This document shows, piece after piece, positions 17,514-50,969 of a stretch of DNA of 64,000 nucleotides. Position 1 is the first letter of the stretch; every line of letters starts with the position of its first letter. A program made the translations under genes and the position numbers. The notes under the pieces are model-generated. The model was not told the DNA's origin. It saw only the letters and a list, made by a program, of their open reading frames with translations, and made no database searches. Source of the DNA: Candidatus Latescibacterota bacterium (lineage in GTDB: Bacteria; Latescibacterota; UBA2968; UBA8231); assembly GCA_022827835.1 (NCBI GenBank), contig JAJEIO010000020.1, positions 22,168-86,167 on the forward strand, given 5' to 3'.

Positions 17514-17523
17514 TGTTCGGCCT

Positions 17524-19470: not shown

Positions 19471-19566
19471 GAATGGGTGCTCCCTATAAAAACCTTCCTG
19501 CGATGAAGAGCATATCTTGGCTCGGTCGCGTTTGATCGCCGTGGTCACCAATGCCCAGCGACAGGC

Positions 19567-26274: not shown

Positions 26275-26301
26275 AGTACTCCTTCCGCTGAGAGGAGAAT
26301 C

Positions 26302-28908: not shown

Positions 28909-28918
28909 TAATGACCCC

Positions 28919-31531: not shown

Positions 31532-31547
31532 TAATGCCCCCTCTATA

Positions 31548-34142
31548 CTAGTAGGCAACGGCAATGGTGCGGAAAATCTCGGCATTACCTATTTGGGAGC
31601 CCTCAGTATCGGTGTCCACTCGCAGCCGCGCTAGATAGACTCCCGGTGGCGCGACAGCGCCCTGTCCATCGCGACCATCCCAAGCGATCCCATACGATCC
31701 TGTGCTCAACGCCCGCTGCTCGACCAGCCGCCGCACCAGCCGCCCTTGCAGATCGTAGATGAGCACCTCCACCGGACTGTCATCGCCCACCTTGACCACC
31801 GCAAAGCGGAACGACGCCTCGTCGTTGATGCCATCGCCGTTGGGCGTAAACACCGCGGGCACCACCGACACCGCTTGCACCAAAGGCCCAGACGCGACTT
31901 TGCCCACCAGCGTCGTCGTATTACTGACCACTTCCGCGACCGCCTCACCCGGATCCACCCGCTGCCAGCCACCCTCGCCCTCCGCACTATTCTGCAATGA
32001 CGCCTGCATCACTGCTCCGGTCGAAAACAAAGCCGTCGAAAAATCCAACCGCATCACCTCAACCCCCGAATCAGGCCCCAGCGGTGCAAACGCTACCTGC
32101 AAGCTATCGCCCGAAGTAGGCACGACCTCAGCAGCGAAAGCCGTCCCGGCCGTCTCCCCGGCCGCTAGTTCGGCCGCTGTACCGCCGTAAAGTCCCTCAA
32201 AGCGCAGATTCATATCGGTGGGAGCGATCAAAAGCAACTGGTCGAAACCGGGGTCGCCGCGGGCGAAGTCTGGACGTACGTAAAAGGAGAAACGCTGCTC
32301 CTCGCCGAGGTTCTCAACCTCGAAAGGAGCGACTTCACCGACGAGTTCTTGCGCGACCGGATTGGTAAAGTTGAGCCGGATCGAACGCAGCGTTGCACTG
32401 ACCTCTGGATCGTCCGAAAGCAGGACCGCACGGATCTCGAGAAATTCGCGCGGGCTAGGCGAGGTAATCGGGCTGCCCTCCGCTACTTCATAGGGCGCAC
32501 TCCAGTCGCTCCAATCTGCGCCAGCCACCTCCTCGCCAATGGTGTCGCCGCGAAAAATCGACAGCAGCTTGTTGTATTCGGCCTCGGTGACTTCAGTGCC
32601 GTCCTTTTTGAAGTAGCGCAGCACTTCGTCGAGTTCGTTGCCGGTACGGGTCTGCAACACTACGCTGGTGCCCGGCGGCGTATCGGCATCCCACTCAATA
32701 GAGGACAGATTGCGGCTGCCGCCCAAGCGCACCAAGTCGGACGTCAGAGTTACTTCTGGCTGATACCCCCGCCCGTAGAGCTGAATCTCGGCCGGCTGGC
32801 CAGAACCACCACCAAAGCCACCGCCCGCCTCATACTGCTTCCAGACGAGGTGAAAGAAGCGTGCTTTAATCCGCCCGAAGTCGTTGCCCTCGTAGAGGCC
32901 GAAACCCAACCCCTGACTGCTGCCATAGTCGCTGTTTTCCGTGCGATTGACCGCGACCGACCACTTGAGGCTGCCGTCGGCTTCAAGGCTGCCGTCGGAA
33001 AAATCTAGATGGTAGGCTTGAAAGGCCGCGCCAGCATAGGCGATGCGGAAGGCATCGATCCAGTAGAAGGCCCCCAAATCGAACAGGACTCCACCCTCCG
33101 GGGAATTCAGTGATCCCCGGCCGAAGCGGGTGATAAATTGGACCCTGCTTTCGATCTCGCCGTCGATCATGTTGCTAATTGAGGCCGTCTGTGTCGCCGT
33201 ACCGGAACCACCGCGCTCCAGCATCTCAGAAAGGATCTCGTCGCCTTCGGCTAGAACCTCCAGCTCCGCTAGCCGCGGGCGCTCCTTGCGGTAGTAGCGA
33301 ATCGAACCTCGGCGGTCGGCGTCGAGACGCTCAAAAACCTTCTGCTCCACTAAGGTCTCGCGGCCTCCAGCGAGTTTTTTGAAGTAGTCTATCGCCCCCT
33401 GCTCTCCTGCCGGCAGAGCCTCGTACTCGGCTTGGCTTAGCTCCCGACCGCGGTCGAAATCGCTGCCAGTCACCACGACCTGCACGAAGCGGAGACCAGC
33501 GCCGGCGAAATCATCTCCCAACTGATCCATGTCGATCTCGAAGAGGCGCTGTTCCTTGTTGGGCCGCAAGGTGCGCAACAGCGGGCTGAACTCTGGCAGC
33601 GGCGAGCGCTGGTTGCCCTTGGGCTTGTTGCCCTGTGAGGCCAACACATCAAACTGCAAGAACGGGTCTCCCAAATCCTCCCCGACGAATTTGAGGACAA
33701 TTTTCTTGGCGATCACCAATCGGCCCAAGTCAACGACGAACCACCACTGTGAAGCGAGATCGGACTCCTCGCTCGCCGCGACTGGTTCCCAATAGGTTGT
33801 CAAATCGCCATCGAAAATATTGGGCACCGCAGCGATATTCGCCGTGGCCCCGCCCTGTACCGCGTCGAGTGGAACGATATCTTCGGGGTCTTTTTTGATT
33901 CTTTCCGGGGGGCGCAAGCGCAAGTAATCGACGATGTCCTGTACTGCATTGATGTCGCGGCGGAGTTTCTGGGGCCGGACCGAGCCGTCGGCACCTAGTT
34001 CCAGCACCCCCGGCGGAAAACTCCAGTTCTGCCAGTGGGCGCGGCTGTTGACTATTACCTGACTCGCCGTCACCCGGTGCCCGACTTGGGCTGAGACGCC
34101 TACTGCCCACCCAAGCATTAATAAGACACTGATGCGCTGCAT
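31548..34142 (-). CDS. A-type secreted surface protein (copy A4)
   Basis: A 864-residue exported protein with signal MQRISVLLMLGWAVGVSA and mature start QVGHRVTASQVIVNSRAHW. It has two discoidin-like domains (IFDGDLTTYWEPV, WWFVVDLGRLVIAKKIV; later FDLGAFYWIDAFRIAY), the sandwich domain with RTGNELDEVLRYFKKDGTE and DWSDWSAPYE, and a CHU_C-like end (PAVFTPNGDGINDEASF) finishing IAVAY. The inserted modules read LSQAEYEALPAGEQGAIDY, EQKVFERLDADRRGSIRYY and VTEAEYNKLLSIFRGDTIG. In sequence it lies between A1 and the A2/A3 pair and is probably closest to the ancestor of the tandem array. It lies 17 bases after B3, so B-type and A-type genes again adjoin. Confidence 0.85.
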   Translation of the reverse strand: MQRISVLLMLGWAVGVSAQVGHRVTASQVIVNSRAHWQNWSFPPGVLELGADGSVRPQKLRRDINAVQDIVDYLRLRPPERIKKDPEDIVPLDAVQGGATANIAAVPNIFDGDLTTYWEPVAASEESDLASQWWFVVDLGRLVIAKKIVLKFVGEDLGDPFLQFDVLASQGNKPKGNQRSPLPEFSPLLRTLRPNKEQRLFEIDMDQLGDDFAGAGLRFVQVVVTGSDFDRGRELSQAEYEALPAGEQGAIDYFKKLAGGRETLVEQKVFERLDADRRGSIRYYRKERPRLAELEVLAEGDEILSEMLERGGSGTATQTASISNMIDGEIESRVQFITRFGRGSLNSPEGGVLFDLGAFYWIDAFRIAYAGAAFQAYHLDFSDGSLEADGSLKWSVAVNRTENSDYGSSQGLGFGLYEGNDFGRIKARFFHLVWKQYEAGGGFGGGSGQPAEIQLYGRGYQPEVTLTSDLVRLGGSRNLSSIEWDADTPPGTSVVLQTRTGNELDEVLRYFKKDGTEVTEAEYNKLLSIFRGDTIGEEVAGADWSDWSAPYEVAEGSPITSPSPREFLEIRAVLLSDDPEVSATLRSIRLNFTNPVAQELVGEVAPFEVENLGEEQRFSFYVRPDFARGDPGFDQLLLIAPTDMNLRFEGLYGGTAAELAAGETAGTAFAAEVVPTSGDSLQVAFAPLGPDSGVEVMRLDFSTALFSTGAVMQASLQNSAEGEGGWQRVDPGEAVAEVVSNTTTLVGKVASGPLVQAVSVVPAVFTPNGDGINDEASFRFAVVKVGDDSPVEVLIYDLQGRLVRRLVEQRALSTGSYGIAWDGRDGQGAVAPPGVYLARLRVDTDTEGSQIGNAEIFRTIAVAY

Positions 34143-34159
34143 AGCTACATACCCATCTT

Positions 34160-36100
34160 TCAGTAGGCTAAAACGACAACGCGCTGACGTGCCTCTTTGC
34201 GTTGGTCACTTTCTACTTCCAGCCGTAGCAGATACAATCCCGGCGCAGCCACCGACCCATCTGCTAAACGCCCGTCCCAGCGCAGCGAGACTCGGCCGCT
34301 CGCCGCCGTGCCCCGATCCACCGCCCCGATCCACCGTCCCGATAAGTCGTACAAATCCAGTAGTACTGGTACTGCACCAAAAAGGTTCAACAATTCGTAT
34401 TCGATCTCAAGGGCGTCATTGATTCCATCGCCGTTGGGCGTAAACACTGGCGAGGACAGCTTGAGCGCATTGACTGCTTTCTCCCCTACTTCGGCTAACT
34501 CTACACTCAGGGTGTTGCTATCGATCAGCGGATTGGCATCGCCTGGAGTTAATGCTTGCCGCACTTCAAAGGGCTTTTCGCTATCGGAGACCCGGCCAGA
34601 GAACACCGTTCCAAACTTGAACACCTCCACGGCGAAATCCACCTCGATCCGTTCGCTGGTTTGCTGCACGTCCATCCGTGGGATTTTGAGAACAAAGCCG
34701 ACGGCGTCCGAGCGCACGACCTCAAAGCCGACTTCCTGGCCGGCGATTCGCACGCCGCTGATGCTGGTCACTTCGACCGGCGTCGCAATCTCGATGGTGT
34801 CAAATCCCAAATCTTCGCGCTCGAATTGCGGCAGAATACTATAGGTAAACTGAGTAACGTCCCCGGCTGGAGCACTCGGTGGCGAAATTTCGGCCAACAC
34901 TTGCGTCGCTACTGGCGGGTCCGAGATGCTAAACTGTAAAAAGTCTAGCCGCCCACCCGCGTTCTTCTGGGCGGTAAAATCGGCTTTGAGCTGTACGTAG
35001 CGCCGCGGTTTATCAGCTTGCATCGGACCCGAACCGGCCGCAAAATCATAGGCCTGGCTCCACGGCTCCCAGTTCTGGGTATCGGGCGTAATCCCGGCCT
35101 TCTCGCCTTTGTTGAGCCTATCGTAGGCTCGGGCCGTAAGCGGCTGGCCCTTGGCGTCAAAGCGGCTCTGCTCGTCGCCGCGGAAGGTGAAGCGCCAATA
35201 GATGCTCGGGTCTGGCACATCGCCGCTGCGCATCACTAAGTCGATATGGGCACCGGTGTCAACTTCGCCCGACCAGCTCAAATCGCCCAAGGCCACCGGC
35301 TTGCCCAAGTCGATAATGCTGCTAGTATAGTTGGAGAAGGGCGCAAAACCTGAACCGTAGAGTTCCAACTCGGCCAATTCCCAAATCCCCCGCGTATTCT
35401 CCGGTGCGCGGAAAAGCAGCTTGCGGATCGGCTCGTCGGGCATCTTCAAGTCAATGATCGGCTGCGTATTGTCGCGGATATTGTAAATCACATCAAAGGC
35501 CACATAATCGCCCCGCGACCCGGCCTGAAGGTCTCGGTGGGGATCTTTGAGTGGGTCGCCGTCGCTGGTGCCGATAATGAAGCGCTCGACAAAGCGGTCG
35601 GTCAGGTGGCTGGGCCGCGGGTAGAACTTGACCCGGTCGATAAAGAACAGCCCGCCAAAATCGAAGATCAGGTTTTTGGTATTCGGCCCATGCGAGGCAA
35701 AATGACCGTCTCCCAGATAGGCCGTATTGGGATCCTCGTCCCAAATAAGCTCATCGTCGTCGTCGAACCCTCCCCAGCCGATCCAAGTCAGGTAGAGGAT
35801 ATCACCGAGAAAATCGGCCTGCGGCAAAAGTGGTGTCAGATTGACCGTGGGGTCGAGTTGCCGCGGCTCAATGTGACTGCTGGTCACCTCTAGCAAGTTG
35901 ATACTACCGTGCAAATCCTCGTCGATATCGGCCCAATCGATCTGCACGAACTCCACCCCTTCAACCGATGCCAACTCCGGCGCAGGCTGGTCAGTACCCC
36001 CGACCCGATAGATCGTTAGAGCACCAAGATCGCCTGCCCCTACCACCAGCGATCCCACCGTCCACCATGCGATTAGGTGTCTCATCTGGCTCATCCCCAT
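34160..36100 (-). CDS. B-type secreted surface protein (copy B3)
   Basis: A 646-residue exported protein. Candidate starts are ATGs at 36100, 36094 and 36085 (the track's 36106 is a TTG). I take 36100, right after the B4 stop. The signal is MRHLIAWWTVGSLVVGAGDLGA and the mature start LTIYRVGGTDQPAPEL. It is the copy closest to B1: PRQLDPTVNLTPLLPQADF, the GWGG loop, LIFDFGGLFFIDRVKFYPR, and the insertion LTARAYDRLNKGEKAGITPD. The terminal domain is VFTPNGDGINDALEIEYELL, ending RVVVLAY. This segment is almost the same as in B4, so the two share a recently homogenised C-terminus. It lies between B4 and the A-type array. Confidence 0.85.
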   Translation of the reverse strand: MGMSQMRHLIAWWTVGSLVVGAGDLGALTIYRVGGTDQPAPELASVEGVEFVQIDWADIDEDLHGSINLLEVTSSHIEPRQLDPTVNLTPLLPQADFLGDILYLTWIGWGGFDDDDELIWDEDPNTAYLGDGHFASHGPNTKNLIFDFGGLFFIDRVKFYPRPSHLTDRFVERFIIGTSDGDPLKDPHRDLQAGSRGDYVAFDVIYNIRDNTQPIIDLKMPDEPIRKLLFRAPENTRGIWELAELELYGSGFAPFSNYTSSIIDLGKPVALGDLSWSGEVDTGAHIDLVMRSGDVPDPSIYWRFTFRGDEQSRFDAKGQPLTARAYDRLNKGEKAGITPDTQNWEPWSQAYDFAAGSGPMQADKPRRYVQLKADFTAQKNAGGRLDFLQFSISDPPVATQVLAEISPPSAPAGDVTQFTYSILPQFEREDLGFDTIEIATPVEVTSISGVRIAGQEVGFEVVRSDAVGFVLKIPRMDVQQTSERIEVDFAVEVFKFGTVFSGRVSDSEKPFEVRQALTPGDANPLIDSNTLSVELAEVGEKAVNALKLSSPVFTPNGDGINDALEIEYELLNLFGAVPVLLDLYDLSGRWIGAVDRGTAASGRVSLRWDGRLADGSVAAPGLYLLRLEVESDQRKEARQRVVVLAY

Positions 36101-36102
36101 TC

Positions 36103-38028
36103 TCAATAGGCTAGGGCAATGACGCGCTGAAGCGCTTCCTTGCCTTGGTCGCTGTCAACTTCTAATCTCAGCAGATACAGCCCCGGCGCGGTCACGGCCC
36201 CATTCGCCAGCACTCCATCCCACGCCAGCGCGAATCGGCCACTCTCCGCCGTGCCCCGATGCACCATCCCTACCCGCCGTCCCGCTAGATCGTATAGCTC
36301 CAGCGCCACCGGCACTGCGCCGAAGAGGTTTAGCAGCTCGTATTCAATCTCGAGGGCGTCGTTAATTCCGTCGCCATTGGGCGTAAATACCGGCGAGGAC
36401 AGCTTGAGCGCGTTGACCGCCTTCTCCTCTACGTTGACCAGTCCCACGCTCAGGGTATTGCTATCCACCAGTGGATCGGCGTTCCCGGCAGTCAGTGCCT
36501 GCCGCACCTCGAAGGGCTTCTCGCTGTCGGAAATCCTCCCGGTAAATACCGTCCCGAACTTGAATACTTCCACCGCAAAGTCAATCTCAATTAGTTCGCC
36601 CGTCTGTTGCGGATCCATGCGCGGAATCCGCAATGCGAATCCTCGTGCATCCGAGCGCACAACGTCGAAGCTGACCTCTTGACCATCAATCCGCAACGCG
36701 TCGATGCTTGCAACCTCGACCGGGGTCTCAATCTCAATAGTATCAAACCCCAAATCCTCGTCGCGCAATTGGGGCAGAATCGCATAAGTAAAAGACGTCA
36801 CCTCGCCGGCGCGGGCGCTCGCCGGTGCGAGTTCGGCCAAGGCTTGAGTCGCCACCGGCGGGTCTGAGACGCTAAACTGCAAAAAGTCCAGACGCCCACC
36901 TGCTTCTTTCTGGGAAGTGAAATCAGCCCTGAACTGCACGTAACGACGCGGTCTGTCCGCTAGCAGCACGTCCTCTCCGGCGGCGAAGTTATATGGCGGG
37001 CTCCAGTCGGACCAGTTTTCAGTATCAGGTGTGACCCCAGCCTTTTCGCCCTTTTCCAATCGGTTGTACGTGCTGAGCGTCAAGGCAGTGCCATTGGTGC
37101 CGAAGCGACTGCGCTCGTCGCCGCGAAAAGTCAGACGCCAATAAGAATTGGGATCGTCGTCATCACCGCTGCGCATCGACAACGCCACTTCTGCCCCTCC
37201 CTCGGCCTCCCCCGACCACGTTAGATCGCCCAAACTCGCCATGCCGCCTAAGTCGATGACGTTGGTCATGTATTGGCTCTTGGGCGCGAAGCCAATACCG
37301 TAGAGTTCAAACTCGGCGATTTCCCAAACGCCTCGGGTGTTGGGCGGTGCTTCAAACATGAGTTGGCGGATAGGCTCATCCGGGATGCTCAACTCGATTA
37401 CCGACTGCGTGTTTTCGGTGATGTTGTACACCAAATCGTAATCGCGAAACTGGCCACCCTCGCCGCCGACGACGTACTCGCGCGTATTCTTCTTGAGTGG
37501 ATCTCCATCGCTGATGCCAATGACGAAGCGCTCGATGAAGCGGGTGTCGAGAAAACGTTCGCGGGGATAAAACTTGATGCGATCGACGATGAAGTTGCCG
37601 CCCAAGTCGAAGATCAGGAGTTTGTTTTTGACCCGGCCGTAGTCTCCGCCCCAATCGCCATCGCCGAGAAAGTGCGTCGTTGGGTCGCCGTCGAACATCG
37701 GTGCATCGCGGGCCGGAAAGTCGGCGAACCCGACGATCGTCTGCAAAGTCTCAATCCGGCCGCCGCGCTCGTCCAAAAGGGGCGTCAGGTTGACCGTCGG
37801 GTCTAGCTGCTGCGGCATAATCTCATCGGATGCGAGCACCATTTGTACCGCACTACCGTGTGCTTTAGAACTTATGGCCTCCCACTCAAGCTGGACAAAT
37901 TGATAGGGCACATCCAACTCGGGAGCAGGCAAATCCGCTGCGCCGATGCGGTAAATGGTCAGCGCATCGCTGCGACTACTCCATCCTATTACCGCTAAAA
38001 GCGCCAAAAGCCATAAGCCTCTCTTCAT
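36103..38028 (-). CDS. B-type secreted surface protein (copy B4)
   Basis: A 641-residue exported protein with signal MKRGLWLLALLAVIGWSSRSDA and mature start LTIYRIGAADLPAPEL. The N-terminal motif is PQQLDPTVNLTPLLDE. The discoidin-like domain contains PTTHFLGDGDWGG, LLIFDLGGNFIVDRIKFYPRE and VWEIAEFELYGIGF. The sandwich insertion is LTLSTYNRLEKGEKAGVTPD, then NWSDWSPPYNF. The CHU_C-like end is VFTPNGDGINDALEIEYELL, finishing RVIALAY. It is the first gene after a strong hairpin (38077-38102), so it may start a new transcription unit. A TATTAT stretch on the minus strand just after that hairpin is a possible -10 element. Its stop immediately precedes the B3 start. Confidence 0.85.
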   Translation of the reverse strand: MKRGLWLLALLAVIGWSSRSDALTIYRIGAADLPAPELDVPYQFVQLEWEAISSKAHGSAVQMVLASDEIMPQQLDPTVNLTPLLDERGGRIETLQTIVGFADFPARDAPMFDGDPTTHFLGDGDWGGDYGRVKNKLLIFDLGGNFIVDRIKFYPRERFLDTRFIERFVIGISDGDPLKKNTREYVVGGEGGQFRDYDLVYNITENTQSVIELSIPDEPIRQLMFEAPPNTRGVWEIAEFELYGIGFAPKSQYMTNVIDLGGMASLGDLTWSGEAEGGAEVALSMRSGDDDDPNSYWRLTFRGDERSRFGTNGTALTLSTYNRLEKGEKAGVTPDTENWSDWSPPYNFAAGEDVLLADRPRRYVQFRADFTSQKEAGGRLDFLQFSVSDPPVATQALAELAPASARAGEVTSFTYAILPQLRDEDLGFDTIEIETPVEVASIDALRIDGQEVSFDVVRSDARGFALRIPRMDPQQTGELIEIDFAVEVFKFGTVFTGRISDSEKPFEVRQALTAGNADPLVDSNTLSVGLVNVEEKAVNALKLSSPVFTPNGDGINDALEIEYELLNLFGAVPVALELYDLAGRRVGMVHRGTAESGRFALAWDGVLANGAVTAPGLYLLRLEVDSDQGKEALQRVIALAY

Positions 38029-40979: not shown

Positions 40980-43940
40980 CTACCTTAGACTGGCAAAGAT
41001 CGAGAGAAAGGCCAACCCCGCCGTGCGCGTCTCGGCGTCGCCATCGACAACTTCGATCGCACGTCGGTCGTAACGTATGCCGAGCTGAGCAGTGAGTTCG
41101 TAGCCCAAGTAATCCCTGCGGTTGGTCAGCTGTACGGCCAAGACTGTGCCTCTGAAATCTCCGGTTCGCTCCCCCGCCCCCAGTTTATCCTCGTCGCCTA
41201 TGAGGTTGTAGAACTGGCGCTGTTCAACGCCGAGGTCAACACTAGAGCTCACTAAGAGTGGGAAACGCACCAAGAACGACCACAAAGCGTCCCAAGAGCG
41301 CCGCTCAGCCAAGTCTCGGTTAAATGGTACCTGGCGCAGAAATTCGCTTTTGAACCTAGGCGAAAGCCACAACTGTCTCCAGTTAAAGGCGTAGTCAATT
41401 TTGTCGATTAGCCCAATAAAACCCGAAGTCTTACGGCCATTGCGCCCCTCCGGACCGAGCGGGTCGAAAAGCACCACCGGATCCCCTTCCGCATCGAGCA
41501 TCCTTTCCCCGGTTTCGTCGAGGGCAAAGACTACATCCGCATCTCGCTGACGCCACCAATCCCACTTAAAGCGGTGCCGCGTAGCCCAGCGTCGCGGACT
41601 CTTGTATTCCCAGTCGGCATAGAACGTATTGATCCAAGTGTCCTCGGCGGCCAGAAGATCGGGTACGGGAACGTTGCGCCCGCTGACCTCTTCGACGACG
41701 CTACCCAACTCCAATTCGGGTATAATCCACTGTGAGAGCGGGTCGGGGATGGTGTCCTCAGCCCTTTTGAGCATGTCATAGACCCGCAAGCTACCCCAAG
41801 TAGGCCCAGCCCGCTGATAGGTCAAAATTCCATAGGCCGTCTCATTGCGGCGATTGGTCTCGCGCTGGTCCTGATAGAGGAAACCGCCCATCAGGCGCAT
41901 CTCTGGGTTGACTTGAACTCGGGCGTAGGTATTGTAGCCCCAGTGGTCCTTTTTGTAGGGGTAATCGGGCAAGTCGTCGTTTTCAAAGCGCTCGGCCCAG
42001 CCGTTGTTATTTAAGTCAATGCCAAAAAGAAACTCCGGCCGGTCCGAGTGATAGCGCAGGAAAGGCTCTTCATAGTCGGGAAAAAGATTCTCCCGGTCGC
42101 CGTTGCTGTTCTGGTTGAAATCCGAGATGAAATCGCCGTTTTCGTCGTAGCCGGGGAAAACCGCTGGATCGGCCACGCCCTCGGAAGTCACCGTGAAGTT
42201 GCTGATCGAGGTCGTATGCGGCGGAATCAAGCTTCCCTGAAAAATCCGCAATTGGTCCGGGTGCCGGTCGTGGTCGTCGTTGTCGTCGACGAAGTCGTAG
42301 AGCAGGTTGGTGGCCTCGGGCGAGTAGTCGGCCACGCCGCGGCCATCGACCGGCAGCACACTGGTAGAGTACGTCTCATCCATGCCGAAGCCCTCCAAAA
42401 AGAGCAGCCACGGACCGGACTTTCGCGCCAAGTTGAACATCCAGCCAAGTGCGGTCTCGTCATCGACGATGCCCGAGAAGCTCTCGTGCTTTTTGCGGTT
42501 GATCGCAGGGTATTGACGGTATTGATTGCTGACGTTGAACTCGCCGTAGAAGTCGAAGCCGAAAAAGTCGCGCAACTCGGCGCTGGCCCCGAAGATCTGG
42601 CTGGCCGTCGGCAGGCCGTAGTCGATGACGACCTCGCGCTGATTGAGTTCGTTCTTGATATTGCCCGGTGCCCGCTCCATGACGATGAACTGGGGCTGGC
42701 CCGAGCGGTTGGTCTGGCGATCAGACGACACCTCCACCCGGTAATCGTTGGCCAGCACCAAGCGGAATCTCACGTTTTTGACGGCGGTAATCGCGTCGGC
42801 GGCTTCGGCCAAAGTCAGCCCTAAATGCTGCTGCAAAAGCAAGCGCAGGGAGCCTTCCTCAGAGGCATCATCTTCGGGTGCGAGCACGTACTTGAGCACG
42901 ATGCTCTCAGCGCCATCGGCACGCAAGAAGCCATCGCGCAGTTCACCGCCATCGCGCACCGGGCGAAAACCTATTCCGCTGCCAATGATGGTAGTGTCGC
43001 GCGCTACTAGCTGTACGCTATCGCCGACTGAGACCTCGCGCATTAGGGTAGTAGTAATTTCCACGTCGTCGCTGAAGAGCACCGCCCCCCCTTCGCCATC
43101 CTCGGGCGAATCATCCGCAAGCCTTACTACCAGCAGGTTTAGTTGGCGGTCGAGTTGACCCGAAGTCAACTGGCCTTTGAGTGGGTTGCCCTGAAAACTT
43201 TCGCGCGCACCATTGCCGTTGTGGACATTGACCAACGTTAGCCCCAAGGTCGCTTGGTCGGCCACGTCGAGTTCAAAACGGCCAGCCGCCAAGTTGGAAA
43301 AATTCTCCAACGAGGCCGTCGGGACATCCGCGTCAATATCGACGATGGGCAGGGTCACCCGCGAAAACAGACCCGTAGCTCGGGTTCGCCCCGCTGCGAA
43401 GCTGGTCACCACGCCGTTGAAGCCGACCTTGTTGAAGGTCATCGGCGTCAACGTGGTGCGGATCTCGTCGCCGACGATAATCGAATAGCTATAAGTACTG
43501 GTTTGGTCTGAGGTGATAATCAAGCGGTCAAACCAGCCCGCGTAGCGGCCTGTCTTGGTGATTGAACTGCTTTCGAAAGCACGCGGTTGGGTCTGGCGCC
43601 AATCGTAGACGAGGTAGCCGCGGGTGATAAAATCCCCGTAGGCGTCGTAGAAGTAGTTGCCATCGAGATTGCGGTCTAGGTAGCGGCGGTAGGGTTCTCT
43701 GGCGTAGTTAGTGTAGCTCCATTGGCGACGCCCGTGCTCACTGAACAGCTCCTGTGGCATGTACCAGCGCATAACCGTCGGGTCTAGCACGTCCATATCA
43801 ACCGCTGCGCCGACCGAGGAGTAGCGCACCTGCTCGGCCACGCGATACCCTAGGCGGTTGCCGTAATCCATGTCCTGGGCTTCCGCTCTGCCTAGCGCCA
43901 AGGATAGGACGACGACGAAAATCGCCGTGCGCCTCGACAT
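40980..43940 (-). CDS. Large predicted outer-membrane barrel protein (paralog 2)
   Basis: A 986-residue exported protein. I use the ATG at 43940 with a GGGAG site (MSRRTAIFVVVLSLALGRAEA) rather than the track start six codons earlier. It has no hydrophobic helices after the signal and is rich in alternating strands and aromatic residues. Near the N-terminus stand LDPTVMRWYMPQELF and WSYTNYAREPYRRYLDR; the middle has FGIDLNNNGWAERFENDDLP; the last 350 residues look like barrel strands (TYARVQVNPEMRLMGGFLY, YELTAQLGIRYDRR). It is clearly paralogous to its upstream neighbour. I infer an outer-membrane barrel with a large N-terminal extracellular or periplasmic part. The function is unknown; possible roles are export pore, receptor or anchor for the surface proteins around it. 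Confidence 0.7.
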   Translation of the reverse strand: MSRRTAIFVVVLSLALGRAEAQDMDYGNRLGYRVAEQVRYSSVGAAVDMDVLDPTVMRWYMPQELFSEHGRRQWSYTNYAREPYRRYLDRNLDGNYFYDAYGDFITRGYLVYDWRQTQPRAFESSSITKTGRYAGWFDRLIITSDQTSTYSYSIIVGDEIRTTLTPMTFNKVGFNGVVTSFAAGRTRATGLFSRVTLPIVDIDADVPTASLENFSNLAAGRFELDVADQATLGLTLVNVHNGNGARESFQGNPLKGQLTSGQLDRQLNLLVVRLADDSPEDGEGGAVLFSDDVEITTTLMREVSVGDSVQLVARDTTIIGSGIGFRPVRDGGELRDGFLRADGAESIVLKYVLAPEDDASEEGSLRLLLQQHLGLTLAEAADAITAVKNVRFRLVLANDYRVEVSSDRQTNRSGQPQFIVMERAPGNIKNELNQREVVIDYGLPTASQIFGASAELRDFFGFDFYGEFNVSNQYRQYPAINRKKHESFSGIVDDETALGWMFNLARKSGPWLLFLEGFGMDETYSTSVLPVDGRGVADYSPEATNLLYDFVDDNDDHDRHPDQLRIFQGSLIPPHTTSISNFTVTSEGVADPAVFPGYDENGDFISDFNQNSNGDRENLFPDYEEPFLRYHSDRPEFLFGIDLNNNGWAERFENDDLPDYPYKKDHWGYNTYARVQVNPEMRLMGGFLYQDQRETNRRNETAYGILTYQRAGPTWGSLRVYDMLKRAEDTIPDPLSQWIIPELELGSVVEEVSGRNVPVPDLLAAEDTWINTFYADWEYKSPRRWATRHRFKWDWWRQRDADVVFALDETGERMLDAEGDPVVLFDPLGPEGRNGRKTSGFIGLIDKIDYAFNWRQLWLSPRFKSEFLRQVPFNRDLAERRSWDALWSFLVRFPLLVSSSVDLGVEQRQFYNLIGDEDKLGAGERTGDFRGTVLAVQLTNRRDYLGYELTAQLGIRYDRRAIEVVDGDAETRTAGLAFLSIFASLR

Positions 43941-43959
43941 CGTTCGCTCCCGTCTCATA

Positions 43960-46782
43960 TTACTCTAGCCCAGCGAAGACCGTAATAAAACTGGTCGTCT
44001 CGTTGCTGCTCTCGTCGCTAATCACAAAGGTCCCCGGTCGGTCGCTATCCTCAATCACCTGTTCGGTAAGAATCCGGCCATAGCGCAGACCAATCTGGGT
44101 CGTCAGCCGGTAGCCCAGATAATCCGAAGTGGTCGAGAGTTGCACGGCGACATTGGTCGAGCTCAGGTCACCTGTCTCCTGCTGGCGACCCGAGGCAATA
44201 AGCGCATTCTCGTCCGTGCTCTGGTCACTGAACCACAACTGCTCTAGCCCGGCCTGAATAATCGTGTGGCGCAGTACCGGCAAGGTCGCGATCAACTGCG
44301 CCGTCGCCGTCCATTCCTCGCGATCATCTTCTGCAACGAGAAAGGCCGTCTGCCGCAGAAGCTCGCTTTTGAACCTCGGCTGCAAGTCCAAACGCCCCAA
44401 GCCGTAGGTGTAGTCAACCTTGTTGATCAAGCCAAAAAAGCTGGAGTTGTCCTCCATCAGGCGGCCGTTGGCGTCGCGGGTCTCGGCTTGGTTCTGGCGG
44501 AAGGTCTCCCACTTGAGCTTATTGACCACGTTCAAGCCCTCGAGACCCTTGTAGTCGAACTGCACAAAGGCGGTGTTGATCCAAGTATCCTGCGCCGGGA
44601 GAATATCGCGGACTACGGGCTGGATCGGTGCACCCTCAAAGGGCGTAGGCTCGCGGCGGGCATCGGGGATAGTATCCTTGGCCTGTTTGATCATATCGAA
44701 GACCCGCAGGCGTCCCAAGCCCGCGTAGTTCTTGTCAAAGGTGAACATCGCGTAGTTGGTCGCGTTGGTCGCGTCGGTTGTCTGCGACTCTTCATCGGTG
44801 CGGCCGACAATCAGCCGAGCCTCCGGTAGCAGGTGCACCCCACCAAAGACATTGAATCCCCGACGATCAGGTTTATAGGGAAAGTCGGGTAAGTCATCGT
44901 CCTCAAAGCGGTCAATCCAATTGTTGTTGTTGAGGTCAATGCCAAAGAGAAACTCCGGCCGATCGACATTGTAGCGCAGGAACGGCTCCTCGTAGTCGGG
45001 AGTGATATTGCCTACAGTGGCGTTGTCGTTCTGGTTGAAGTCGGAGATGAAGTCGTTGTTCTGGTCCCAACCTGGGTAGATTGCCCGGTCATTGATCGTG
45101 CCGAAGCGAACCCAATCGGGGTAGCGATCTTGATCGTCGTTGTCATCGACAAACTCGTAGAAGTGCCGCTGGCTATTGTCGTATTGCACATCGCCGTTGG
45201 CGTTGACCAAAAAGGTAGTGGTCGAATAGGCTTCATCAATGGCGTAGGCCTCGCCATAGAGGAAGTAGGGAAAGTCATCGCGCGAGGCGCTGAAGTACCA
45301 GGCGTCGGATGACTCTGAAGAGATCGCGTGTTTCTTCCCCTCGTTAAACAGCGCGGCATTGGGGTACTGAGCATAGCGCTTGTTGCGGTCCCACTCGCCG
45401 TAGAAGTCAAAGCCGAAGGCATCGGCCCCCTCAATGGTAAAGCCGCCGATTAGGTTGGCAGTCGGCAAGCCATAGTCGAACTTGATCCGCTGCAAATTGG
45501 AGATGTCCTTCACGTTGCCCTCGGCGCGCCGCAGTACCACGAAGGCTGGCTGGCTGTTGTCGATTACTTCGCTGGTCAACGGGGCCGCCGGTACCGCCCG
45601 CTGGCCCGTCTGGCGGTCGGACCACAATTCGACTTTGAAGTCGTTGGCCACTACGTAGTTGAAGTCCACTCCGACAATCGTCGTCGGGTCTGGGCCGACG
45701 TAGGCCGGATCGTTGAAGTCGTAGTTGACGATGATCCGCTCCGGGCCGTCCGCAGCCAAAAAGCCCGGACGCCGGAACCCGCCGAAGATGACCGGCCATT
45801 CGGAGCCAGGCCGGACCACCTCCTGCAAAGTAGAAACCGTCTCCTTGCCGGTGTCAAAGTCGCGGCTAGTGATCCGCACCTCGTGGCTGAACAGGGCCGC
45901 GCCCCCCTCGCCGTCTTCCGGCGAGTCGTCGCTCAGAATCACCGCAATCGCCGTCAGCGGTGTCGTGCTCTGGCCAGCGGTGAGGCTACCGGCGACCAAG
46001 TCGCCAGCGAAGAGATCGAGAGTAGTATTGGCGTTGCGAGCATCGACTAGTGTGGCCCCCAGCGTGATGAAGTCTCCGACCTGGAACGTCGCCCGCCCAC
46101 CAAACATCGAGGTCGTATTAGTCTGAGAAACCGGCTCAGTGCTGCCGCCGAGGCCCTGCGAGGAGCCGCGGATCGGCTCGCTGATGCGCGAGGCGAGGAT
46201 CGTCGCCTGATACTTATCCGAGGCAAAATCGATCTGTACCCCGTTGAAGTCCGGCTTGGAAAACGTCATCGGCGTCAGCGTCGTGCGAATCCGGTCGCCA
46301 ACCGTGATCGCGTAGTTGTACTGACCCTGCGAATCGCCGCTGATGGTCACCGCGTTGAACCAAGTATTAAAACGCGAACCCTGGAAGATGCCACTGCCCA
46401 AGGGCAACGGCTGATCCTGACGCCAGTCGTAGATCAGCCAACCATGGGTAGTGAAATTGCCGTACACATCGTAGAAGTAATCGCCCTCGCGGGTGGTGTT
46501 GACGTAGCGCTCATACGGGGTGCGGGCGTAGTTGGAGTACTCCCACTGACGCCAGCCATAGTCCACGAAGAGTTCCTGCGGCACGTACCACTTTTTGACC
46601 GTCGGGTCGAGTGCGCCAAATATCACGCCTGGGCCAATAGGCTCAAAACTGACCGCACCGCCGCGCTGTACCCCTAACCGACTCTGGTAGTCCTCCTGCC
46701 CATGCGCCGGAGTTAGGCCAAGTAAAGCGCCGATCACTGCAAGACTTCGCATCGCTTTCAACACTGCTCTCCCTCGTTCCAT
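43960..46782 (-). CDS. Large predicted outer-membrane barrel protein (paralog 1)
   Basis: A 940-residue exported protein. The track ORF begins inside the upstream gene; the ATG at 46782 has a GAGGT site and gives a signal ending LLGLTPAHGQ. It shares with paralog 2 the motifs LDPTVKKWYVPQELF, WEYSNYARTPYERYV, GDYFYDVYGNF, RTTLTPMTFSKPDFNGV, DDSPEDGEGGAALFS and FGIDLNNNNWIDRFEDDDLP, in the same order over the full length. The C-terminal third alternates polar and hydrophobic residues as in barrels and ends SFITVFAGLE. The two copies are diverged enough to have separate roles. It sits 14 bases after the C-type surface protein gene. No plug or TonB-box motif is apparent, so I do not call it a TonB-dependent receptor. 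Confidence 0.7.
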   Translation of the reverse strand: MERGRAVLKAMRSLAVIGALLGLTPAHGQEDYQSRLGVQRGGAVSFEPIGPGVIFGALDPTVKKWYVPQELFVDYGWRQWEYSNYARTPYERYVNTTREGDYFYDVYGNFTTHGWLIYDWRQDQPLPLGSGIFQGSRFNTWFNAVTISGDSQGQYNYAITVGDRIRTTLTPMTFSKPDFNGVQIDFASDKYQATILASRISEPIRGSSQGLGGSTEPVSQTNTTSMFGGRATFQVGDFITLGATLVDARNANTTLDLFAGDLVAGSLTAGQSTTPLTAIAVILSDDSPEDGEGGAALFSHEVRITSRDFDTGKETVSTLQEVVRPGSEWPVIFGGFRRPGFLAADGPERIIVNYDFNDPAYVGPDPTTIVGVDFNYVVANDFKVELWSDRQTGQRAVPAAPLTSEVIDNSQPAFVVLRRAEGNVKDISNLQRIKFDYGLPTANLIGGFTIEGADAFGFDFYGEWDRNKRYAQYPNAALFNEGKKHAISSESSDAWYFSASRDDFPYFLYGEAYAIDEAYSTTTFLVNANGDVQYDNSQRHFYEFVDDNDDQDRYPDWVRFGTINDRAIYPGWDQNNDFISDFNQNDNATVGNITPDYEEPFLRYNVDRPEFLFGIDLNNNNWIDRFEDDDLPDFPYKPDRRGFNVFGGVHLLPEARLIVGRTDEESQTTDATNATNYAMFTFDKNYAGLGRLRVFDMIKQAKDTIPDARREPTPFEGAPIQPVVRDILPAQDTWINTAFVQFDYKGLEGLNVVNKLKWETFRQNQAETRDANGRLMEDNSSFFGLINKVDYTYGLGRLDLQPRFKSELLRQTAFLVAEDDREEWTATAQLIATLPVLRHTIIQAGLEQLWFSDQSTDENALIASGRQQETGDLSSTNVAVQLSTTSDYLGYRLTTQIGLRYGRILTEQVIEDSDRPGTFVISDESSNETTSFITVFAGLE

Positions 46783-46796
46783 AAGTACCTCAATAC

Positions 46797-49022
46797 TCAA
46801 TAAGCCAAGCTGACCATGCCAACGCCGCGTTCCTGGCCAGTGCCAGCGTCCAGCGTCACGCTGAACAGATAGTTGCCTGGCGGCACTGCCTCCCCGGCGT
46901 CGTTTTTGCCGTCCCAAGGACGAACGTGGCGTCCGCTGCTGTCGAGTCCGCGGTAGAGCTGCCGCACCGGGCGCCCTGCCAAGTCGCGCACCACGATTTC
47001 TACATCGGTTGGTCGAGCGATATTGGTGATGTCGTACTGAATCGTAGCTTGGTCGTTTATGCCATCCCCATTGGGGCTAAAGGCCCCGGGGACCGCATGC
47101 ACGTTGACCAGCAAGTCTCCGACGATCGGCACGGCCACCGAGAGGTTCCCGCTGAAAGGCGTACCCAAAGGCTGTAAGTCCGGATCGGCTTCACCCAAAT
47201 CGGCGGCATTACCCGATACCACATCTTGGGCAATCTGCACTTCCTCACCCGAATTGAACGCCCGCGTCGTAAAGGTCGTGCCGAAGCGCAGCACCGCATT
47301 GTCGAAGGTCACTCGCACCTCAGTGCCATCCTCGGCGACCATTGGGAACTCAAAAATGAAGCTGTTGTCAGTGGCCTCAACCACCGCAAAGTCGCCGCGC
47401 AGGAACGGCAACTGGTCGAGTGCCGCACCGCTGAAGTCGGCCTCAGTCGTTGTGCCGTCCGACCGCCGGATCTCTATCAGTCCCACGTTTTCGACCTTGA
47501 GCGGGGTATCAATCTGTAGCCGATTGAAGCCGCGGTCGAGTCCCGGGCGAAGTTTGCTCAACACGGCGAGGGTAAAGTCCGTTTTTTCGCCCAACGCCGC
47601 TTGGCGCGGGACGATCTCGGCGATTAACTCCTCGGCAAAAGGCGAAGGCAGTACCTCAAAGGAAATCCCCCCAACGCCAGTGGCTGACTCGAACTCGTCG
47701 CTAGAGAACTCAATTGCGAACTGAAAATAGCGCCGCGGACTCGGCGAAACCACCGGCACCCCTTGCAATGCGTCGGCCAAATCGGCGTCCGACTCAACCA
47801 GCGCGCTGACCGGATAGGGCGGCGACCACGCGCTCCAGTTGGTCACGTCGTTGCGGATATTGCCCTTGTCTTCATTGCGCAACCGACCGAAGTCAGTGGC
47901 CGTCAGCGAGATCTGCTCCTGCTGCTCCAGCGACAGATCCTTGAATATCTGCAGTGCCTCGCGCAAATCTACATCCTCGTTGTCGAGCACTGTCTCGACC
48001 AAGGTTTTTAACTCGGCATCTTCGACGTCAGCGGCGAATTTCCACGGCACTTCGTCGCCACGAGCCGTGGTCCCCGTCTGTCTGGATCCACCGCCCAGGC
48101 GGAAGATCTGCTCGCCCGGGCGAATTTTGTTGTATTCGACCGGCTGCGGGTCGTTGCCAGTACGGGTGCGGATCAAGACCCGAGATAGCCCACTGTCGCC
48201 CGCCTTCTGCTCGACCCAGCGCAGCGTTCCAAACAGCGACAGGTCGCCGAAGTCAAAGACATTGGAGATATATGTGGCCTCGGGCACAAAGCCTGTGCCA
48301 AAGACTTGAAACTCAGCCAAGTCAAAGCCCGTTGACGTCAGCGACTTGAGCCGCACGAACCGCACGTACTGGGGCGGGATCCGCACGTCAACTACCGGGT
48401 CTTCGTTTTGGTTGACTAGCACCACAGTCTCGCGGATGGGCACTCCCTCTCGCTGAGTCTCGGGTGTACCGTCGTTGATAAATATCTCGAAGGCGCGCAT
48501 AAAATCGTTCTGGTATGGAAATGCCGGAGCGGGAAACGCCGGGTCGGCATTGCGGGGAAAAAACTTGAAGCGATTGATCCCGAAGCGGGCCCCTAAGTCC
48601 AGATCGATGATAATGCCCAACACGCGCGCGCTCTGGCCACCAGCACTAGCGCGCAAATCCAGCGCCGTCTCGCCATCATTGTCGATGATACTGGGCAATT
48701 CCGGCCGGATATTGATGGTATTGGGCGAGGTGATCGAGCCGCCGCGGGCTTCGGAATTAGCGCCAACGGCGATATTGAGCGTAGTATCAGCGCGCTGGGG
48801 AAAAATCCAATTTCTGAACCCCTCGGCATTGAAGTCGATGACCCCGCCGGGCGCGTTGGTATTTTCCACCGAAGTCGCGCTGCGGATGACCGTAGCTTGA
48901 ATCTCCCCACCACCGCTGACCCAATCCAGACCGCCTTCGCCGCCGACGATCACAACTTCAGCAGCAGCCGACCAGCCTCCGAGTAGGCACAATAAGAGAG
49001 CATATACGCTGGCGCGTTTCAT
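46797..49022 (-). CDS. C-type secreted surface protein
   Basis: A 741-residue exported protein heading the barrel operon. The ATG at 49022 gives MKRASVYALLLCLLGGWSAAA; the track start is a TTG two codons earlier. It combines features of the A and B types with its own N-terminus (VVIVGGEGGLDWVSGGG). The discoidin-like domain (about 80-270) has IDLDLGARFGINRFKFFPR and FDLAEFQVFGTGF. The RTGN...WSAWS sandwich carries the largest insertion in the set, about 110 residues, including an acidic helical part (LVETVLDNEDVDLREALQ) and LTATDFGRLRNEDKGNI. The CHU_C/FlgD-like end (AFSPNGDGINDQATI) finishes MVSLAY. A single C-type copy beside the barrels suggests a structural or dedicated-partner role, by inference. 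Confidence 0.82.
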   Translation of the reverse strand: MKRASVYALLLCLLGGWSAAAEVVIVGGEGGLDWVSGGGEIQATVIRSATSVENTNAPGGVIDFNAEGFRNWIFPQRADTTLNIAVGANSEARGGSITSPNTINIRPELPSIIDNDGETALDLRASAGGQSARVLGIIIDLDLGARFGINRFKFFPRNADPAFPAPAFPYQNDFMRAFEIFINDGTPETQREGVPIRETVVLVNQNEDPVVDVRIPPQYVRFVRLKSLTSTGFDLAEFQVFGTGFVPEATYISNVFDFGDLSLFGTLRWVEQKAGDSGLSRVLIRTRTGNDPQPVEYNKIRPGEQIFRLGGGSRQTGTTARGDEVPWKFAADVEDAELKTLVETVLDNEDVDLREALQIFKDLSLEQQEQISLTATDFGRLRNEDKGNIRNDVTNWSAWSPPYPVSALVESDADLADALQGVPVVSPSPRRYFQFAIEFSSDEFESATGVGGISFEVLPSPFAEELIAEIVPRQAALGEKTDFTLAVLSKLRPGLDRGFNRLQIDTPLKVENVGLIEIRRSDGTTTEADFSGAALDQLPFLRGDFAVVEATDNSFIFEFPMVAEDGTEVRVTFDNAVLRFGTTFTTRAFNSGEEVQIAQDVVSGNAADLGEADPDLQPLGTPFSGNLSVAVPIVGDLLVNVHAVPGAFSPNGDGINDQATIQYDITNIARPTDVEIVVRDLAGRPVRQLYRGLDSSGRHVRPWDGKNDAGEAVPPGNYLFSVTLDAGTGQERGVGMVSLAY

Positions 49023-49274: not shown

Positions 49275-50969
49275 ATGAAAATGAAGCATCTCAACGCCTT
49301 GCTCTTATTCAGTTGGCTCTTCGCCGCCTGCGAAAGTCAGCAGCAATCGCCGTCCTCGCCGGGCGAACTCGTAGTCGCCGAGGTCGGCGACAAGCCGATT
49401 ACTGCGGCTGAATTCGCCGAATTCTCTTCCCTGATCCCCGAAGGTATGCGCGAAGGGGACACGCCACTGGCCGTCGCCCGCAATCTGCTCAACAGCCTGA
49501 TCGACAAGGAATTACTCCTACAAGAAGCCCAGGCGTCCAACATCGAAAATATGACCTGGTTTATCGACGAGCTGACCAACTACGAACGCTCGCGCATCTT
49601 GCGTCTCTACGAGCAACGAGAAATCATCAGCAAGCTGAACATCACCGAGGAAATGGTCGATGCCCACTATCGCGCAACCCGCCGCGACCGCTCAATCCGC
49701 CTCGGCGGCATCATGGTCGATACCGAAGAAGAAGCCAACGCCCTCTACCAGCAGCTCCAAGATGGTGCCGATTTTCACCAACTAGCCCGCACCCACTCGG
49801 TCCATCGCGAAAGCGCCGAGCGCGGCGGCGATACCGGACTGTACCAGTTGCGCGACCAACTCATGCCCGAAGTCGTAGCCAAAGTAGCCGACCTAGAAAT
49901 CGGCGAAATTGCCCCGCCAGTGTCGATGCTCGTAGCCCGCGAGCAAAAGTTTGCCATCTTCACCGTGCTCGACGAAATCCCAGCACCGCTCGAAGCCTCC
50001 GAGGCCCGCATCCGCGAAGAATTGCTCATCGCCCAGCGCAACCAGCGCCTGCAAACCATGCTCGATTCCCTGCGGGGCGTTTACTATCCCCAACCGCAGT
50101 TGCAGAACCTCGCCCTATTGGCCGAGCGCATAAGTCAGTTCACTGGCGAGGAGTTCACCCCCACCGAGGACGACGCGGCCTTACCTGTCTGCACCTTTGG
50201 CAAAGGAGACCCCATCGGCTTGAGAACATTCGTCGAGACCATCCGCCAGATGAGAATAGCGCCGCAAATGCTGATCGACACCGAGCGCGCCGCGGACTTG
50301 CTCGACCGCCGAGTCATCCCCGAACACCTGTTCATGTCTGAAATCATCAACGCTGGGCTGGACCAAGACCCCGAGTTCCGCGCCAGCATCGCCGCCAAAC
50401 GCCAAGAACTTATGGTAACCGGCCTCCGCAAGATCATGGTTGACCAGCACCTGTCGGTCACTCCAGAAGAGGCTCGCACCTTCTATGACGAGCACCCGGA
50501 GAAATTCACCAAACCCACGACCACCGTCGCCATCGAAATTCTGGTCTCCAGCGACTCGCTAGCTCAGCATCTGTTTACTGAGCTAGCACAAGCCACTGAA
50601 GCCGAGGCCGAAACCCTCGCCGTGCGTCACAGCGAACGCGCCGAAGCCCTCCACCACAACGGACGCATCAATTTCAATATCTACACCGAGCAATTCTTCC
50701 CCGGTGTCTCCGACTTGGCCCAAGATCTCGAGGTCGGCCAAGTGGGCGGCCCAGTCCGCACCCAGCGAGGCTATTCGGTTTTCAAAGTCTTGGATCGCCA
50801 ACGCGAACACATCCCCTATACTGAAGATTCAGAACGACGCGCCCGAGCCTACGTGCTCATCGACAAAGCTCAGAACCGCTACGTCGAATACGTGCGCAGT
50901 CTGCGCAAAATCTATCCGATAACCATTCGCGAAGATCATTTGAAGCAGTACACCGCCGCCCAAAGCTGA
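49275..50969 (+). CDS. Parvulin-type peptidyl-prolyl isomerase lipoprotein (SurA/PpiC-like)
   Basis: A 564-residue lipoprotein with signal MKMKHLNALLLFSWLFAAC (lipobox LFAAC). It has a SurA-like helical N-terminal region (about 30-135: VVAEVGDKPITAAEFAEFS, NLLNSLIDKELLLQEA). A first rotamase-like domain follows (about 140-240; GGIMVDTEEEANALYQQL, GGDTGLYQLRDQLMPEV, LEIGEIAPP), then a long helical spacer and a second rotamase-like domain (about 415-525; SERAEALHHNGRINF, LEVGQVGGPVRTQRGYSVFKV). Such periplasmic chaperones help fold outer-membrane barrels and secreted proteins. It is transcribed divergently from the barrel and surface-protein operon, which makes it a natural candidate chaperone for those clients. 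Its stop overlaps the next start by one base. Confidence 0.88.
   Translation: MKMKHLNALLLFSWLFAACESQQQSPSSPGELVVAEVGDKPITAAEFAEFSSLIPEGMREGDTPLAVARNLLNSLIDKELLLQEAQASNIENMTWFIDELTNYERSRILRLYEQREIISKLNITEEMVDAHYRATRRDRSIRLGGIMVDTEEEANALYQQLQDGADFHQLARTHSVHRESAERGGDTGLYQLRDQLMPEVVAKVADLEIGEIAPPVSMLVAREQKFAIFTVLDEIPAPLEASEARIREELLIAQRNQRLQTMLDSLRGVYYPQPQLQNLALLAERISQFTGEEFTPTEDDAALPVCTFGKGDPIGLRTFVETIRQMRIAPQMLIDTERAADLLDRRVIPEHLFMSEIINAGLDQDPEFRASIAAKRQELMVTGLRKIMVDQHLSVTPEEARTFYDEHPEKFTKPTTTVAIEILVSSDSLAQHLFTELAQATEAEAETLAVRHSERAEALHHNGRINFNIYTEQFFPGVSDLAQDLEVGQVGGPVRTQRGYSVFKVLDRQREHIPYTEDSERRARAYVLIDKAQNRYVEYVRSLRKIYPITIREDHLKQYTAAQS

Follow-up and report, generated by a model that had tools for sequence, protein, structure and literature searches.

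What role do two large barrels play when they are encoded directly behind a secreted surface protein? The question is raised by a window of 64,000 nucleotides (the whole stretch of DNA analysed) from a 5.84 Mb Latescibacterota assembly. In this window, genes for a C-type surface protein, barrel 1, barrel 2 and a membrane-TPR protein follow one another with gaps of 14, 19 and 13 bases (Table 1). An earlier annotation made from the letters alone, hereafter the sequence-only reading, had described this close spacing and the two barrel lengths, and the coordinates agree on both counts. For barrel 2, an alternative ATG six codons further upstream would give a protein of 992 aa.

Table 1. Coordinates and properties of the four-gene run, its sub-features and neighbouring genes in the window
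Feature	Positions	Strand	Remarks
C-type surface protein gene	46797-49022	-	741 aa, signal peptide, ends ...SLAY
C-terminal domain (CTD) of C-type protein	46800..47084	-	95 aa, starts with FSPNGDGIND, last residue Tyr
Barrel 1 gene	43960-46782	-	940 aa, ATG at 46782; barrel-1 clade of tandem cassettes
Barrel 2 gene	40980-43940	-	986 aa, ATG at 43940; barrel-2 clade
Most conserved loop of barrel 2	41946..42380	-	residues 521-665, acidic; probably extracellular
EF-hand-like pattern of barrel 2	41982..42017	-	D642-N644-N646-E653 (DLNNNGWAERFE)
Membrane-TPR gene, last of run	39224-40966	-	multi-pass membrane protein, C-terminal TPR repeats
PpiC/SurA-like periplasmic chaperone gene	49275..50969	+	divergent neighbour; ~20 paralogs in sampled loci
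Six A-/B-type surface protein genes, region	24313..38028	-	C-terminal Tyr
First three of the six	24313-26274, 26302-28956, 28919-31585	-
Last three of the six	31548-34142, 34160-36106, 36103-38028	-
Two further Tyr-tailed surface protein genes	14910..19551	-	14910-17540, 17524-19551

Sequence and predicted structure of the barrels

The two barrels are 43% identical over their full length (E = 2.7e-169), which indicates homology and not chance. Three of the motifs that the sequence-only reading listed as shared (RTTLTPMTF, DDSPEDGEGG and GIDLNNN.W..RFE.DDLP) are indeed found in both proteins; YVPQELF and SNYAR belong to barrel 1 only, barrel 2 having the variants YMPQELF and TNYAR. Neither barrel matched any Pfam or NCBIfam model, a PDB search with a profile of the barrel family returned no match, and a PDB sequence search with barrel 2 gave one insignificant match and nothing else. 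The same reading had placed the barrels outside known families and had seen no plug; these searches bear it out, neither a plug nor any other known domain being found with Pfam and NCBIfam. The barrels form an undescribed family of large, outer-membrane type proteins that no library model covers.

An AlphaFold2 model of barrel 2, based on 60 sequences (pLDDT 77, pTM 0.75), has about 24 long alternating strands, counted from the DSSP strands of the prediction. In outer-membrane beta-barrels, the strands that cross the membrane are even in number and are joined by short turns in the periplasm and by long loops outside. The prediction fits this strand pattern: its short turns and its long loops lie on opposite sides, and both ends are predicted to be periplasmic. 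Residues 23-139, which precede the barrel, are conserved and are mostly modelled with low confidence. All listed Foldseek matches of barrel 2 were outer-membrane barrels, none of them close (TM-score at most 0.28 by query length). Both the predicted structure and the strand count are thus in line with the barrel assignment first made from the sequence.

Conservation is highest in one loop of barrel 2, in which 30% of columns are at least 95% conserved, versus 8% in the C-terminal part of the barrel; this loop is probably extracellular. Besides the EF-hand-like pattern in Table 1, a second one begins at D599 (D599-N601-D603-D607). The key residues of both are 98-100% conserved among the 60 sequences, and the two patterns may bind calcium.

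Several known families were considered for the barrels and rejected. Membership of PorP/SprF (TIGR03519) is contradicted by the absence of an NCBIfam match and by the wrong size and strand count, and membership of the SusC/TonB-receptor family by the absence of any Pfam or NCBIfam match. SprA/Sov is likewise a large outer-membrane barrel, and SprA is among the listed Foldseek matches; however, the barrels have no SprA_N/TIGR04189 match and the SprA of this genome is a separate gene. LptD and MtrB are 26-strand barrels and the FimD usher has 24 strands. These large barrels are also among the listed Foldseek matches, but with TM-scores of at most 0.33, identities of 6-8% and an unrelated gene context.

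Tyrosine-tailed surface proteins and their pairing with barrels

The AlphaFold2 model of the C-type protein (pLDDT 87.5) is mainly beta and includes a galactose-binding-like domain in the ectodomain; its fold match is CBM-like (4zz5), and SusD is not among the listed fold matches. The C-terminus is a FlgD-Ig/CHU_C domain, scoring 29.2 bits against Pfam CHU_C (cut-off 27), 26.1 bits against the type B model TIGR04131 (cut-off 35) and 15.9 bits against the T9SS type A model TIGR04183 (cut-off 23). TIGR04131 matches 40 of 62 Tyr-tailed CTDs at E <= 0.01, and a profile of the Tyr CTDs also matches PorU and T9SS models. Judged by these matches, the C-terminal domain of the window's C-type protein is a putative type-B-like T9SS sorting domain, and the A-, B- and C-type surface proteins look like T9SS cargo.

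In the barrel loci of the source genome, each of the 80 intact proteins with a CTD of this class has Tyr as its last residue; the count leaves out four further members of the cluster, which are truncated at the end of a locus or deviate. Among 181 strong CTDs from 80 loci in other genomes, 179 end in Tyr and two in Phe. A second class of CTD, found elsewhere in the source genome, carries PNPFN and ends in Lys or Arg; the eight such proteins sampled all pass TIGR04183, at 30-47 bits. A PNGDGxND-type motif is present in 209 of 293 Tyr/Phe tails versus none of 59 Lys/Arg tails. The Tyr-tailed CTDs are a class distinct from the Lys/Arg-tailed type A CTDs.

There are about 41 barrel genes in the source genome, a family whose extent the sequence-only reading had not noticed, and 40 of the 41 lie in a co-directional run with a Tyr-tailed FlgD-Ig/CHU_C gene, which is immediately 5' of the barrel in 27 cases. 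In the 80 loci from other genomes, a CTD gene is immediately 5' of 110 of 126 assessable barrels, directly or through a tandem barrel, and 73 loci contain an A/B/C-type protein. The pairing persists under other gene orders in families f5, f6 and f7, the last having a core operon, described below, in which both the barrels and the Tyr-tailed CTDs are divergent. The association between barrels and surface proteins is phylum-wide. Together with the barrel-like prediction, this co-occurrence upholds the proposal of the sequence-only reading that the barrels are the outer-membrane part of a surface system; the expected company of A/B/C-type genes fails, however, for three divergent lone barrels of f7 (L243, L244 and L245), which have no Tyr-tailed neighbour in the stretch examined. 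About 19 Tyr-tailed CTD proteins occur in sampled loci without a barrel (L153, L155, L157, L160, L161, L163, L164 and L166), a situation comparable to that of orphan type B substrates.

A single-sequence search of 64 genomes of the phylum found barrels in 39. Every genome of family f1 has them, with 8-61 candidate places at first look; families f5-f9 have fewer, and f2-f4 and f10 have none. The Tyr class occurs in the families that have barrels, and those four without barrels also lack strong Tyr-class CTDs: all 29 tails sampled from barrel-less genomes (f2-f4, f10 and the incomplete G014) end in Lys or Arg. The public genomes with relatives bear the title Latescibacterota or, in the case of isolates apparently of the same group, Gemmatimonadetes. 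Several isolate names hint at sponge hosts, and the source organism is probably sponge-associated. Among the best 80 of 485 relatives in a scan across phyla, one contig with two barrels came from a bin titled Chloroflexi (L126) and another from a bin titled Bryobacterales (L141). Both closely match the contig of a Latescibacterota bin from the same sampling series; cross-binning is the most likely explanation, and these two bins are not taken as a sign of spread to other phyla, although other phyla may be represented among the relatives beyond the best 80.

A tree of six loci separates barrel 1 from barrel 2 as two clades, both with full support and with identical branching. Because cassettes duplicate as blocks, barrel and cargo copies are not independent. 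A mirror test for CTD-specific co-evolution gave correlations, but barrel distances follow the cargo ectodomain more closely than the CTD (partial r 0.37 vs 0.18), so CTD-specific recognition gains no support from this comparison.

Other families recur around the barrels. Some membrane-TPR neighbours (L014:11054-13273, L021:10434-12659) match PMT_2 and, given this match, may be protein O-glycosyltransferases of the surface proteins; the window's own membrane-TPR protein has no PMT_2 match. A family of about 311 aa beside barrel loci (L010:5112-6095 and 22 relatives) starts with AHDPP, carries an LDADLSEWD motif and has no Pfam match; by eye, it resembles a carbohydrate-binding DOMON/CBM9-type domain. 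Another family without Pfam match, lipoprotein-like and about 260 aa long, recurs in cassettes (L033:3724-4488 and nine relatives). Elsewhere in the window (56233-62640), a 2135-aa open frame unites M28 peptidase, MacB/FtsX and DUF6785/DUF6784 domains, possibly as a real fusion or as a frame joined through sequencing error.

Secretion genes and the core operon

The source genome encodes matches to SprA (TIGR04189, 614 bits, cut-off 200; a 2176-aa gene), PorU (NF033707, 623 bits, cut-off 420) and the PorV family (NF033709, 238 bits, cut-off 90), with porV adjoining porU. By these profile matches, all three components of the genome-level test for a type IX secretion system (T9SS) are present. 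PorP/SprF (TIGR03519) is above cut-off in none of the 64 genomes, and a search for the GldL/GldM (PorL/PorM) motor with TIGR03517 gave no match here and equally none in control genomes. We found no report of a T9SS in Latescibacterota, nor any paper combining Latescibacter* with type IX secretion.

The f7 core operon encodes a Tyr-tailed protein, a PorV-like protein and two barrels (one in G009), followed by an 1100-aa TPR protein with a weak PorW/SprE match, a DUF5683 protein, a small protein, ExbB and two ExbD. The source genome has two sets related to it, L034/L251 (G000:C46:1-27000) and L035/L250 (G000:C44:37000-69000). Together with L239-L242, these show the operon to be common to distant families of the phylum, and it may be the older form of the cassette. 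The motor genes ExbB/ExbD are absent from most other cassettes, which do have cargo and barrel.

Weighing the role of the barrels

In Bacteroidota, secretion of type B cargo needs a cognate PorP/SprF barrel, usually encoded by a neighbouring gene and suggested to anchor the cargo (PMC9143113, PMC12618676). The present loci resemble that system in having a barrel gene directly downstream of a gene for a protein with a CHU_C/type-B-like CTD, in combining several cognate pairs with some orphan cargo per genome, and in the presence of SprA. They differ in that PorP/SprF proteins are FadL-type barrels with 14 strands and a length of about 300 aa, whereas the barrels described here are 900-1000 aa long, with about 24 strands predicted, and have no sequence match and tens of copies, often two in tandem, with cargo ending in Tyr. 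Our preferred reading, held tentatively and at not quite an even chance, is that the barrels serve a type-B-like branch of the T9SS as outer-membrane partners dedicated to its cargo, capturing the Tyr-tailed proteins. The direct adjacency of Tyr-tailed genes makes the barrels probable dedicated docking partners of the T9SS, and the order of the two genes, that of type B cargo and sprF-like genes, points the same way. So do the phyletic match over 64 genomes with its Tyr tails and T9SS-like CTDs, the presence of SprA, PorU and PorV where PorP/SprF is absent, and the barrel prediction with the shared topology of the two barrel clades. Against it, the PorV-like protein of the core operon may already take the shuttle seat, the barrels are not of the 14-strand FadL family and are three times the size of PorP/SprF, and their distances follow the ectodomain more than the CTD; furthermore, some Tyr-tailed proteins and three distant barrels stand without each other, and the window's Tyr CTD falls below the type B cut-off.

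The co-variation with the ectodomain would be at home in SusCD-like uptake, in which the barrel is a nutrient channel, the Tyr-tailed protein a glycan-binding surface lid and the cassettes sugar-uptake loci, energised by the ExbB/ExbD of the core operon. Like SusC/SusD importers, the system joins a barrel to a surface binding protein in many paralogous loci with sugar-related neighbours: tens of cassettes have cargo with galactose-binding-like domains, sugar ABC importers neighbour cassettes and a sulfatase gene lies in the window. Yet the barrels have no plug or TonB-receptor domain and SusC is just a distant fold match, the partner is all-beta and not SusD-like and carries a T9SS-like tail, and ExbB/ExbD are missing from most cassettes; we consider uptake possible, on the unlikely side. 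The ExbB/ExbD genes could instead power a barrel that itself exports the Tyr-tailed protein independently of SprA. About 24 strands could contain a large pore, and barrels share their phyletic pattern with the Tyr class, SprA occurring also in lineages that have just the Lys/Arg class. The resemblance of Tyr CTDs to T9SS sorting domains, the complete SprA at hand and the poor economy of 41 different translocons make this the least probable of the explanations considered. A broader proposal, rather unlikely in our estimation, is that the barrels, as a new class of about 24 strands, and the ExbB/ExbD core operon with its PorV-like, 1100-aa TPR and DUF5683 proteins form a separate energised T9SS branch, or a separate export route across the outer membrane, for Tyr-terminated surface proteins, with dozens of copies that may serve different glycans. 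Finally, barrel and cargo may have spread as a cassette and work apart, for example as a porin and an adhesin. Multiplication in blocks agrees with such a history, and block inheritance alone would produce the distance correlations; this is nevertheless quite improbable in view of the pairing kept despite different gene orders in f5, f6 and f7, the phyletic distribution of the barrels, which matches that of a single CTD class, and the concentration of conservation in a loop that is probably exposed.

If the barrels are cargo partners, its signal peptide would take the C-type protein across the inner membrane, and the SprA translocon of the T9SS would then take it across the outer membrane. The large barrels, whose genes follow immediately downstream, would capture its Tyr-terminal type-B-like CTD and keep the protein at the cell surface, in the manner of PorP/SprF-like barrels with type B cargo in Bacteroidota. 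Barrel 1 and barrel 2 would work as a pair that is inherited together and may be a heteromer, with the conserved acidic loop 521-665 as the likely docking face, and the displayed ectodomain would probably bind glycans.

The cargo-partner reading would mean that a mostly uncultured phylum has one T9SS with type A and type-B-like cargo classes, and it gives a place to a barrel family, named here, that has tens of copies per genome and no library model. A C-terminal Tyr versus Lys/Arg would offer a simple readout for cargo sorting between branches, and the surface holding of type-B-like cargo where PorP/SprF is missing becomes testable.
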